46,351 nt of DNA from assembly GCA_014381825.1 (NCBI GenBank), contig JACNKX010000046.1, forward strand, positions 1 to 46,351. Reading direction: 5' to 3'. Positions within the stretch are counted from its first letter, which is position 1. Every line of letters begins with the position of its first letter. The DNA comes from Planctomycetota bacterium. GTDB lineage: Bacteria > Planctomycetota > Planctomycetia > Pirellulales > Pirellulaceae. The notes beneath the pieces are model-generated. The model searched no databases, was not told the DNA's origin, and saw only the letters and a list, made by a program, of their open reading frames with translations. The position numbers and the translations under genes are program-made. Positions 3,429-43,783 of the stretch are shown in pieces.

Positions 3429-5124
<1,696 letters not shown>

Positions 5125-22739: not shown

Positions 22740-22766
22740 TTATCACCGATCTATAGGGAGAGATTG

Positions 22767-23255
22767 ATGCCAAACGGAAAGAGCTTGGGCCGAATCGTCG
22801 AGATTCTGCTCGTGGAGGATAGTCCGAGCGATGCGCTGCTTACCAAGCAAGCGCTCAAACTCGGCAAGGTCAAAAATAAACTGCATCACGTCGAAGATGG
22901 TGTCGAAGCGCTGGCATTTCTACGTAAGGAGGGCGACTACGCCGAGATGGCGCGTCCCGATGTGGTCCTGCTTGACTTGAATATGCCAAGAAAGAACGGG
23001 CGTGAGGTCTTACAAGAGATTCGCGCAGACGAGAACCTGAAGACGCTGCCTGTGATTGTGCTCACTACATCGGACGACGAACGTGATGTGCATGACGCCT
23101 ATGGCTTGAGCGCGAACTGCTACATTACCAAACCGGTCGACATGGCGCAGTTTACAGCCGCGATGGTTGCCCTTGACCAGTTTTGGCTCACGTGGGTCAT
23201 GCTTCCTACGCAACAAGTACAGGGCTCGAACGATGACAAGCATTTTAGTGGTTGA
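22767..23255 (+). CDS. Single-domain response regulator (Rcp1-like)
   Basis: This 162-residue protein is a receiver domain with no output domain. It has the acidic pair in LLVEDSPSD, the phospho-acceptor Asp in VVLLDLNMP, the switch Thr in VLTTSDDE, and Lys in ITKPVD. The sequence type is that of the Rcp1 regulators that pair with phytochrome-like kinases. The ATG at 22767 has GGGAG close upstream. It follows the kinase by 27 bases and overlaps the next gene by 23 bases, so the three are very likely co-transcribed. It probably takes phosphate from the kinase. Confidence 0.93.
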   Translation: MPNGKSLGRIVEILLVEDSPSDALLTKQALKLGKVKNKLHHVEDGVEALAFLRKEGDYAEMARPDVVLLDLNMPRKNGREVLQEIRADENLKTLPVIVLTTSDDERDVHDAYGLSANCYITKPVDMAQFTAAMVALDQFWLTWVMLPTQQVQGSNDDKHFSG

Positions 23256-24138
23256 TGATTCCCCGTCCGACTTGGGCTTGGTTGTCGCGCATATTCAGAA
23301 CGCTCGCCCTGATTGGGAGATTCACTCCACGGACAACGGCGCCGACGCTCTCGTGCAAATCGGGACCATCGACTTAGACGTACTCATCACGGATCTGCGG
23401 ATGCCGAAAATGGACGGCATTCAGCTGATCGGAGCGCTGAAGCAACTGCGGCCCGAGTTGCCGGTCGTTGTCGTGACCGCTCGGGGGAGCGAGGAGTTGG
23501 CCGTCGAAGCATTAGCCAAGGGCGCGGCGAGTTACGTGCCAAAGAATCAGTTGGTGGAACGACTCGTCGAGACGATTGAACAGGTTCTCGATCGCGTGCA
23601 TGCAGATCATGGCTATCAGCGAGTGATCGGCAGTCTGGATCGTACCGAATACGAGTTTACCATTGAGAATGACCTCGCGCTGATTCCGCCATTGGTCGAT
23701 CTGTTGCAACAAGTCGCTTTTGGCATGGACCTTGTCGACACGACCGAGCGGCGGCGGCTTGGAGTTGCCCTCGACGAGGCGATCTTGAACGCCATGTATC
23801 ACGGCAATTTGGAGCTGCCGGCCGACGACCTGCCCGAGATTCGTCCGTCGCTACGCGGCGAGCAGCGTGCCATGATGTTCGAGAGCCGCTCGAAATCCCA
23901 ACCGTACAAAGATCGTCGTGTACGAGTCTTCGCGTTGATCACACCGAACGAAGCAAAATTCGTTGTCAAAGATGATGGCAAAGGCTTCGACCCATCTCTT
24001 TTTCCTGACGCCAAAGACCCGCGTACGCTGGAGGAGGAAGGCGGTCGCGGACTCGTGCTGATGAAGAGCTTTATGGACGAAGTGAGTTTCACCGATGCGG
24101 GCAACGAGGTGACTCTGATTAAGCGCAGGAGTCCTTGA
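23233..24138 (+). CDS. Receiver domain fused to RsbW-type ATPase
   Basis: This 301-residue protein has an N-terminal receiver domain (about 1-120). Its acidic pair is in VVDDSPSD, the phospho-acceptor Asp in VLITDLRMPKMDG, the Thr in VVTARG and the Lys in VPKNQ. The C-terminal part (about 165-300) is a HATPase_c_2 domain of the anti-sigma-factor kinase type: DEAILNAMYHGN is the N box, DDGKGFDP the G1 box, and GGRGLVLMKSF the last box. This suggests that phosphorylation of the receiver controls a serine kinase or anti-sigma activity. The start at 23233 lies inside the end of the previous gene (23-base overlap), which suggests translational coupling. Confidence 0.9.
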   Translation: MTSILVVDDSPSDLGLVVAHIQNARPDWEIHSTDNGADALVQIGTIDLDVLITDLRMPKMDGIQLIGALKQLRPELPVVVVTARGSEELAVEALAKGAASYVPKNQLVERLVETIEQVLDRVHADHGYQRVIGSLDRTEYEFTIENDLALIPPLVDLLQQVAFGMDLVDTTERRRLGVALDEAILNAMYHGNLELPADDLPEIRPSLRGEQRAMMFESRSKSQPYKDRRVRVFALITPNEAKFVVKDDGKGFDPSLFPDAKDPRTLEEEGGRGLVLMKSFMDEVSFTDAGNEVTLIKRRSP

Positions 24139-42261: not shown

Positions 42262-42296
42262 TTGACTTCTATCAAATTGCCATCTTTGATAGAAGT
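42262..42296 (+). promoter_or_regulatory. Perfect dyad overlapping a response-regulator promoter
   Basis: ACTTCTATCAAA (42265-42276) and TTTGATAGAAGT (42285-42296) are exact reverse complements with an 8-base spacer. The dyad overlaps a plausible plus-strand promoter: TTGACT at 42262-42267, 17 bases, and TTTGAT at 42285-42290. It lies between divergent promoters and has low GC content, so it looks like a repressor or activator site rather than a terminator. Confidence 0.65.
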
Positions 42297-42332: not shown

Positions 42333-42725
42333 ATGTTACCCGACATGCCTTCCATGCTGATTACCGACGACGACCGCGCCTTTCGCGAGACGTTGGGCGG
42401 TTTGTTCGAAGAGCGTGGCTTCCATACGATGTTGGCGGAAGATGGGCAAGAAGCGTTTGAGATCGTGCAGCGCGAAAGGATTCACGTCGTCCTGCTCGAC
42501 ATGAACATGCCGCGATTGACTGGCCTCGAGACGATTCGCCGCGTCAAGCGAGTCTACGCCTTCGTCCCGTGTATCCTCCTATCAGCGGAAATGGACGAGA
42601 CGCTCGCCGAAGAAGCCCGGCAAGCCGACGCATTCTCGACTCATGCCAAGCCGATCAGCCTGCCCGAAATCACCCAGACGGTAAGCCTCGCGATGCGTGT
42701 CGCCTACGATTGGCCAGCGGCCTGA
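42333..42725 (+). CDS. Single-domain response regulator
   Basis: This 130-residue receiver domain has the acidic cluster ITDDDRAF, the phospho-acceptor Asp in VVLLDMNMPRLTG, Ser in ILLSAEMD and Lys in THAKPISL. There is no output domain. The start is uncertain: ATG at 42333 is chosen, but ATG at 42345 or 42354 would also keep the whole domain. Its promoter region carries the perfect dyad at 42265-42296 and is divergent from sdhCAB. A pseudo-receiver protein follows 170 bases later in the same direction and may be its partner. Confidence 0.88.
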   Translation: MLPDMPSMLITDDDRAFRETLGGLFEERGFHTMLAEDGQEAFEIVQRERIHVVLLDMNMPRLTGLETIRRVKRVYAFVPCILLSAEMDETLAEEARQADAFSTHAKPISLPEITQTVSLAMRVAYDWPAA

Positions 42726-42811: not shown

Positions 42812-42895
42812 GGGTCATTGTGGGCGGAGTGCAACTTCGTTCTCCCGACGACTTCGAATGAATTTGCCTATTAGGTTGCACGAAAGGAACGCACG

Positions 42896-43783
42896 ATGGC
42901 GTCGGTAACAAAACCGAAGAAACGCCTCACGACGCCGTGCGGTCACCTGCCTCTTCAGATTCGAGCGCTCTTCGTTACCGGAACAACTCGCGCGAGCGGT
43001 TGGCTTGCCGATGCATTCACAGCCGACACCGCGAGCGAAGTGTTGCTCGAAGAGACCGCCGGGATGGCCGGCGGCCTGACTCGTTTGCGCGACGAAATAT
43101 TTGACGTTGTATTGGTCAGCCACGAAGACGGTCTCGACTCGCTCGAATTTCTGGATGCACTGCGCGGCGGTGGCGGAGATGTGCAAGCGATCGTCGTCCT
43201 CGGCGAACCGAGTGAGCAAGAGATGGCGGCTCTCTGTTACGAGGCGGGTGCTGACGCTTACGTGTGCCTCACTACAGCGACGACTCGGGCCTTGCTGTGG
43301 ATGGTTGGACGCGCAATTGAACGGGTGCGATTGATTGCCGAGAATCGGCGATTGGAGCAAACCAAGCGGAGACAATTGCAGACCGAGCACGACGAGGCGG
43401 CTCGCTCGATTCGCGAACAACGAGCGATAATCGAAGAGACCGTCGCTGCGATCGACGACGGCTCCGCGAACGAGGCAGCGTCCACGTTGACAGAGACAGA
43501 CTTTCCCGCATCCCTGACGGTTCGCTATCGTGAGTTGCTCCGGACGTACATCATCATGGGAGCTGGTAACCTTTCTAGCGAGATCAATCAGCTTCTCGAT
43601 CAAATCGTTGCTCACGGGCTGACATCACAGCAGGCCATGCAACTTCACGTAAGTGCAATCGAAGAGTTGATTGATGGCCTCGGCAATCGCAGCACGCGCC
43701 ACGCAATGACCCGTGCCGATATGCTCATTCTCGAAGTGCTGATGAAACTCGCCGATCAATACCGGTGCCGTGCGGTGGAGTAG
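42896..43783 (+). CDS. KaiA-like protein: pseudo-receiver plus C-terminal helical bundle
   Basis: This is a 295-residue protein. Residues about 22-145 follow the receiver fold, but the phospho-acceptor position is Ser75 (VVLVS), the switch position is Gly and the conserved Lys is lost, so it cannot act as a normal receiver. A charged helical linker (145-195) leads to a helical domain (205-293). Its pattern is YREL at 211-214, Tyr218, NL at 225-226, Ile230, His251, Arg273 and YR at 289-290, which by eye fits the KaiA/RsbU N-terminal domain family, with KaiA the closer match. KaiA itself has a pseudo-receiver, a linker and this bundle in about 284 residues. No kaiB or kaiC is in the window. An AAAGGA ribosome site precedes the ATG. 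An RsbU-type partner-switch role is the main alternative. Confidence 0.7.
   Translation: MASVTKPKKRLTTPCGHLPLQIRALFVTGTTRASGWLADAFTADTASEVLLEETAGMAGGLTRLRDEIFDVVLVSHEDGLDSLEFLDALRGGGGDVQAIVVLGEPSEQEMAALCYEAGADAYVCLTTATTRALLWMVGRAIERVRLIAENRRLEQTKRRQLQTEHDEAARSIREQRAIIEETVAAIDDGSANEAASTLTETDFPASLTVRYRELLRTYIIMGAGNLSSEINQLLDQIVAHGLTSQQAMQLHVSAIEELIDGLGNRSTRHAMTRADMLILEVLMKLADQYRCRAVE

Follow-up and report, generated by a model that had tools for sequence, protein, structure and literature searches.

KaiA, the activator of the cyanobacterial clock, has looked cyanobacterial in origin, with RsbU as one odd structural cousin, and where it came from is an open part of the bacterial clock story. In the window, that is, the whole stretch of 46,351 nucleotides of planctomycete DNA analysed here, one gene encodes a protein that resembles KaiA in its domain order, and this raises the question of whether it belongs to a clock and, if not, what such a protein would act on. 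An earlier note, made from the sequence by eye, had proposed a KaiA-like architecture and a timing or stress-switch module together with the adjacent response regulator. The reading favoured here, with a probability of roughly 0.6, is that of an orphan member of the superfamily formed by the KaiA C-terminal and RsbU N-terminal bundles, working as a phosphorylation-independent adaptor whose candidate client is an enzyme other than KaiC.

The gene and its receiver-like half

The 295-residue reading frame singled out in the earlier note is a real, selected gene, and the observation was confirmed as a whole (Table 1). Comparison with its nearest relative, L006 from the sister genome, gave 33, 22 and 133 differences at first, second and third codon positions over 282 aligned codons, and the resulting dN/dS of about 0.07 (dN 0.095, dS 1.31) identifies the frame as a gene under selection. 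It is flanked by a single-domain response regulator and, on the opposite strand, by a gene for a large repeat protein. The NCBIfam search of the window protein returned only weak receiver-type matches plus a weak unrelated one, and nothing useful came from a PDB search with the single window sequence. No further copy of the bundle was credible in the host's own genome, the second match having an E-value of 1.7 and an internal stop.

Table 1. Sequence features of the gene and its upstream region, in window positions.
Feature	Position	Strand	Basis or remark
Perfect inverted repeat, 12 nt with 8-nt spacer	42265..42296	.	Between divergent sdhC and response regulator; candidate operator
Single-domain response regulator, usual Asp by eye	42333..42725	+	Pfam Response_reg, E 1.8e-24
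AAAGGA, ribosome-site-like	42883..42888	+	7 nt 5' of ATG; conserved in L040
Gene for pseudo-receiver, long helix and KaiA/RsbU-N-type bundle	42896..43783	+	295 aa, ATG start
Receiver-like domain, residues 21-128, phosphorylation residues lost	42956..43279	+	30-row column counts, PDB profile hits, model
Ser75 codon at the phospho-accepting Asp position	43118..43120	+	D in 3/30 rows
Cys124 codon at the conserved receiver Lys position	43265..43267	+	Lys in 0/30 rows
58-residue helix, residues 130-187, probable coiled-coil linker, putatively dimeric	43283..43456	+	Model; most pLDDT values exceed 90
C-terminal four-helix bundle of the KaiA C-terminal/RsbU N-terminal kind, residues 203-293	43502..43774	+	Profiles, fold search
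Family signature RSxRHxMxRAD, residues 265-275	43688..43720	+	R268, H269 invariant in 103-row alignment

The inverted repeat upstream of the response regulator recurs in the sister genome with 11-nt arms conserved and the loop altered, and its exact pattern is present in 6 of 212 loci, every one from the own or the sister genome. Elsewhere in the window (22764-24138), a CheY-like response regulator is followed by a receiver-HATPase_c_2 (RsbW-like) protein.

The degenerate receiver described in the earlier note, with Ser at the Asp position and the Lys lost, was borne out by column counts in a 30-row alignment that includes the window protein. The phospho-Asp column holds Ser in 15 rows, Ala in 4, Asp in 3, Cys and Gly in 2 each and four other residues once each; column 103, the Thr/Ser position, is occupied by Gly in 27 of the 30 rows; and at the end of beta-1 (columns 28-30) every row lacks a pair of acidic residues, with 4 rows acidic at column 29. 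The A1 profile finds receivers in the PDB, and the Pfam Response_reg model is matched at E 1 or better by 21 of the 30 rows, the window protein not among them. In family f4, another family of the class, inspection by eye shows that the phospho-Asp is also absent and that the receiver drifts while the bundle is still recognisable. Judged from these alignments, the receiver looks dead throughout the family.

An AlphaFold2 model built with the 30-row alignment (mean pLDDT 89.7) places a receiver at residues 21-124, a helix at 130-187 and four further helices at 205-221, 227-239, 244-262 and 267-294, and the bundle modelled alone reached a mean pLDDT of 93.2. The linker had been called charged and is more correctly described as consisting mostly of a single 58-residue helix, after which comes a stretch of low confidence. 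Domain order and length agree with those of KaiA, as a pseudo-receiver followed by a KaiA bundle. A search of the PDB with the full-length model gave mostly receivers, as expected, with full-length KaiA at ranks 20 (4g86), 30 (1r8j) and 33 (5c5e). Superposition on full-length KaiA gave a TM-score of about 0.3 and an rmsd of about 20 A across roughly 310 columns, which means that the domain order agrees and the same arrangement is not established.

Kinship of the C-terminal bundle with KaiA and RsbU

Both families named for this region in the earlier note, KaiA (PF07688) and RsbU_N (PF08673), match the C-terminus of the window protein equally among 24736 Pfam models, at 16.2 bits each and below their cut-offs of 22.2 and 25.5. 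Fragments reach 18.9 and 18.3 bits against KaiA, and scores against RsbU_N range from 16.2 to 19.4 bits. The HMM comparison that had been suggested to separate the two therefore returned both candidates, neither above threshold. When the 30 bundle domains were searched singly, 20 matched RsbU_N and 12 matched KaiA at E 1 or better. The relative L019, drawn from the 10 members with individually listed scores, exceeds the KaiA cut-off at 35.7 against 22.2 bits (E 1.1e-8).

Profile searches of the PDB (177635 sequences) converged on the same two families. The 30-row profile found RsbU at E 0.022 and KaiA at E 0.066, other kinds of chain following from E 0.31. With a 103-row profile the best-scoring natural protein was KaiA (1r5q, E 0.012, positions 3-88 of 91), and RsbU followed at E 0.17 over positions 3-57, about half of the domain; KaiA and RsbU were the natural proteins with E below 0.9, one more appearing at E 0.97, and two chains that by their names look designed outscored both over about 36 residues. 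Alignment to a two-row KaiA alignment with hhalign gave 85% probability and a single-comparison P of 5.7e-6 at 20% identity, and the KaiA pattern noted by eye agrees with the computed alignments.

The fold comparison pointed in the same direction. The predicted four-helix bundle has KaiA topology, and Foldseek against the PDB placed nine KaiA chains (query-normalised TM 0.67-0.79) and one designed protein in the top ten, with fold-alignment identities to KaiA of 14-18%. The proposal that structure prediction should yield a four-helix bundle comparable with KaiA thus held, on the predicted model. RsbU N-domain chains came next, at TM 0.58-0.60, among globins and others lower down, and the best Foldseek E-value for the bundle was weak (0.077).

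Chance similarity among helical bundles would account for the sub-threshold scores of the window sequence on its own, for Foldseek E-values above 0.05, for the ARM-repeat model that the C-terminal fragment also draws in Pfam (E 0.01), and for the failure of a two-row profile of bundles from planctomycete kaiBC clusters (A6, below) to find KaiA or RsbU in the PDB. Different methods nevertheless converge on KaiA and RsbU out of all Pfam models and PDB sequences searched, and L019 lies over the KaiA cut-off. Three segments previously aligned to the profile, two from KaiA and one from RsbU, were letter-shuffled 5000 times apiece; 4623-4926 of the 5000 shuffles returned a score, and 0 reached the real one. 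Coincidence is accordingly regarded as very improbable, and a distant but genuine kinship with both families is preferred. The most conserved stretch is RSxRHxMxRAD, with H269 in 30 rows of the 30-row alignment and R268 in 29, and it is a natural candidate for the contact surface.

The RsbU_N alternative stood in part: it is a true distant relative, equal to KaiA in the window score and matched by more members, and it falls behind in fold match and in the half-domain alignment. A stricter version would make the protein part of an RsbU-type stress switch, in which the bundle docks on an RsbT/RsbW-like GHKL kinase and the pseudo-receiver sets the timing of a partner-switching cascade. Potential partners exist: HATPase_c_2 is matched 21 times in the own genome, 14 times above the cut-off, and one match is in a receiver-HATPase protein on the same contig (23167-24138). 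Since 12 of 14 control genomes contain such matches as well, finding them here carries little weight. Pfam found no phosphatase domain attached to the window protein, its 295 residues lacking the C-terminal PP2C domain of RsbU. Together with the poorer fold and profile coverage, this makes the strict RsbU-type switch unlikely, and the broader adaptor of the KaiA/RsbU bundle class is retained.

Distribution, clock partners and gene neighbourhood

In 34 of 199 genomes of the host's family a protein search found a match at E 1e-5 or better; both halves are covered in 30 (the own genome included), and receiver plus linker in the other 4. A scan of a named-genome collection gave 444 candidate stretches, 149 of them encoding a relative. 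The best 80 of these 149 relatives, 79 with a closed reading frame for the gene, constitute the related-loci set and are by title 77 planctomycetes, two entries named 'bacterium' and one 'Candidatus Nealsonbacteria'; their start codons were assigned by rule, so that the N-termini of the relatives are guesses. In a sample of 392 genomes of the phylum, the full-length profile matches 72 genomes, and two-domain members occur in 20 of the 392. Of these 20, 15 belong to f4 (9 of them to a single genus), 2 belong to the host's own family, and 3 are spread over two further families of the order. The two-domain match of G312 is of the kaiBC type treated below, as is the match of G376 to profile positions 15-259; the other matches are receivers, a few of which extend into the linker.

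In the own genome, which is 99.93% complete, the search for kaiB and kaiC proposed in the earlier note returned neither KaiB (no match at E 0.01) nor a double-domain KaiC (none at E 1e-20). Four matches to PF06745, three over its cut-off and the best at 46.2 bits, were considered as KaiC and are read instead as RecA-type ATPases, because the same model matches 14 of 14 control genomes and gives a real KaiC 378 bits. Across the 199 family genomes, KaiB and KaiC over their cut-offs coincide in 11 (p 2e-16). The gene, present in 30, meets KaiB over cut-off (13 genomes) in 2 against 1.96 expected, KaiC over cut-off (11 genomes) in 2 against 1.66 expected, and, at E 1e-20, a KaiC-like match of any kind (43 genomes) in 2 against 6.5 expected (Fisher p 0.03). 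In both overlap genomes, G019 and G068, kaiBC lies distant from the window-family gene; a separate KaiA-type protein belongs to the cluster in G068, and the surroundings of kaiBC in G019 yielded no bundle protein.

A KaiC-like match (E 1e-20 or better) below the curated cut-off was seen in 32 of the 199 family genomes, and KaiB over cut-off in only one of these 32, G089, whose kaiB contig also carries a second piece of KaiC.

The proposed timing module with KaiC was rejected on these data, as the partners were not found in the own genome and positive co-occurrence is lacking among the 199 genomes. A true KaiA ortholog that stimulates KaiC in a planctomycete clock would have the right domain order and length, and its phylum does possess kaiA-type/kaiB/kaiC clusters; the missing partners largely refute it, and it is scarcely credible beside the chance-level overlap with KaiB, the deficit of KaiC-like matches and the situation in G068 and G019. 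Because no KaiC was found in the host, the client here is not KaiC, and as the family does not travel with KaiB and KaiC it probably steers another partner.

The kaiA-type/kaiB/kaiC clusters were found in six Planctomycetota genomes, one of them (G068) of the window's genus. In G312 (L171:1866-6762) the order is histidine kinase, response regulator, a 301-residue protein with receiver and KaiA-like bundle, KaiB and KaiC (Pfam, 87.5 and 378 bits); this bundle has no Pfam match and is recognised by the family profile at 29.0 bits. In G068 (L175:3147-7501) a 292-residue receiver/KaiA-type protein is followed by KaiB, KaiC and a receiver-PAS-SpoIIE phosphatase. Against the 30-row bundle profile, L175 matches at positions 22-90 only (18.7 bits), and the 5% contamination recorded for G068 means that the contig with its kaiBC may be foreign. 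The two-row profile A6, made of the G312 and G068 cluster bundles, matches 13 of the 392 genomes. The matches have kaiB and kaiC directly downstream in G312, G392, G412, G214 and G376, are receiver/KaiA-type proteins in G308 and G327, with no kaiB or kaiC within the short loci examined, and recover four window-family members (G040, G560, G486 and G510). Matches to a coiled-coil protein in G361 and a Lon-like protease in G289 look, by eye, like chance and were set aside.

One cluster bundle, in G392 (L191:1489-3108), is preceded by HAMP-PAS in place of a receiver, along with a weak Cache match, and stands directly upstream of kaiB and kaiC; L191 is a sensor-swapped KaiA. Elsewhere an N-terminal receiver was recognised by Pfam in L171, L175 and L193, by eye in L194 and just below the cut-off in L192, and the receiver Asp is, by eye, retained in L171, L175, L193 and L194. 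The window-family bundles align with those of L171 and L175 in hhalign at 97% probability (P 4.1e-10, a single-comparison value). A6 against KaiA gave a probability of 2%, and the link of the kaiBC-cluster proteins to KaiA comes from their position before kaiB and kaiC and from their match to the larger profile A4. A 51-row tree, built without L170, L185 and L199, placed 42 window-family rows on one side with support 93/93 and grouped the kaiBC-type rows at 93/45, counting in L195, beside which no kaiBC was seen; with 91 columns and a bootstrap that had not settled, this support is not decisive. On sequence grounds the kaiBC-cluster bundles are homologous to the window family and probably form a separate group.

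The neighbouring response regulator was tried as a functional partner common to the family and rejected, since among the 80 related loci, 67 of the 79 closed-gene ones having 1300 nt or more of upstream sequence, a close match adjoins the gene in the sister genome L040 only; at three other loci, long frames on the opposite strand give distant receiver matches. Two other neighbours recur. Of those 67 loci, 28 carry a divergent larC upstream and 2 more carry it upstream in the same orientation as the gene. Downstream sequence reaches at least 600 nt in 76 loci, and 34 of these have a MazG-like gene on the same strand within that distance, 25 of the 34 being at most 100 nt away or overlapping. 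Both are present in 18 loci. The two assignments come from one example per family scanned with Pfam, and the loci are related, so that the counts are not independent.

The family might accordingly be an adaptor for these neighbours, acting on the MazG-like pyrophosphohydrolase or on LarC nickel-cofactor synthesis, with the gene relocated in the window's genus; that larC also adjoins divergent members (e.g. L177-L181, L183, L185 and L189) speaks for it. The window lacks this linkage, as do over half of the loci and, with the BLAST threshold applied, the 13 examined f4 loci, and in the window genome larC lies elsewhere, without a MazG-like gene in the surrounding 4158 nt, which leaves a neighbour-specific adaptor quite doubtful. 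In f4, 8 of the 13 examined loci have downstream a gene that groups with a Ser/Thr kinase, 7 of the 8 coming from one genus and only one having been scanned with Pfam. The larC, MazG-like and f4 downstream neighbours are leads, not functional proof.

A recurrent Pirellulales cluster of divergent larC, KaiA-like gene and MazG-like pyrophosphohydrolase was seen across L040-L119, and some loci add an ATP-grasp gene and a YfcE-like gene, the latter named by eye.

The interpretation in the earlier note is thus partly supported. Its KaiA-like architecture is backed by sequence profiles, fold comparison and the reciprocal search from the kaiBC-cluster KaiA-type proteins; its timing module and its pairing with the response regulator are not upheld, the latter as a general feature.

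Proposed role and comparison with known systems

A protein with the domain order of KaiA, a lost phosphorylation site and a conserved bundle homologous to those of KaiA and RsbU occurs in these planctomycetes independently of KaiB and KaiC. As an orphan adaptor, it may use the dead receiver to bind a ligand or a protein rather than to be phosphorylated. The 58-residue helix would pair with its copy in a dimer and relay the change, as suggested by the model and by analogy with the linker of RsbU. The C-terminal bundle, presumably dimeric like those of KaiA and RsbU, would then dock a client enzyme and turn it on or off. This client would most likely be a different kinase or ATPase, a GHKL switch kinase being the first candidate by analogy to RsbU and RsbT; larC and the MazG-like gene, frequent as they are, give no pointer to a kinase client.

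More tentatively, and at somewhat less than even odds, Planctomycetia may harbour a large unrecognised family of KaiA-architecture switches for a non-KaiC client, KaiA being one branch of an older class of docking bundles. If so, and together with the sensor-swapped kaiBC-cluster proteins, the clock activator and RsbU would be special cases of receiver- or sensor-driven docking bundles. The KaiBC-independent family and the kaiBC clusters with varying sensor parts provide material on the origin of KaiA and the targets of its bundle. Relatives in named strains, Bythopirellula polymerisocia Pla144 (L088) and Aeoliella straminimaris ICT_H6.2 (L103), mean that experiments may be possible.

No description of the window family was found in the openly licensed literature on KaiA, KaiA3, RsbU, KaiB/KaiC and planctomycetes. 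One report there concerns a planctomycete KaiA: PMC8113500 mentions KaiA with a full kaiABC operon for 'Planctomycetaceae bacterium TMED241', which we guess to be a misbinned cyanobacterial contig.

Among known systems, aspartate-less receivers (PMC4395418) have the same fold without the phospho-Asp, and the window protein adds a KaiA/RsbU-type bundle. KaiA3 of Synechocystis (Sll0485) and its non-cyanobacterial counterparts share a receiver plus KaiA-like bundle, a length of about 300 residues and occurrence outside cyanobacteria; according to PMC11372060, non-cyanobacterial KaiA3 is named in five genera, planctomycetes not among them, the phospho-Asp of KaiA3 is retained in almost every species, and kaiB3/kaiC3 are in most cases its neighbours. 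The window family shows neither of these last two features: the window protein has Ser75 and has lost the Lys of a phosphorylatable receiver, and its genome offers no kaiB3/kaiC3 synteny.

The RsbU N-terminal domain (PF08673; PDB 1w53 and 2j6y) belongs to the same bundle superfamily and equals KaiA in single-sequence score. In RsbU this bundle is at the N-terminus, ahead of a PP2C phosphatase, whereas the bundle of the window protein is C-terminal and no enzyme domain was found by Pfam. The RsbU linker becomes a coiled coil upon RsbT binding, according to PMC12143880.

The planctomycete kaiBC-cluster KaiA-type proteins (L171, L175 and L191-L194) have bundles homologous to that of the window family, which differs from them in that they stand immediately upstream of kaiB and kaiC and form a separate tree group. 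KaiA of cyanobacteria (PF07688), whose pseudo-receiver binds quinones and whose bundle binds KaiC (PMC11372060), has like the window protein an Asp-less receiver, a linker and a C-terminal four-helix bundle; unlike KaiA, the window protein falls below the Pfam cut-off, occurs in a host in which KaiB and KaiC were not found, and bears its own RSxRHxMxRAD signature.
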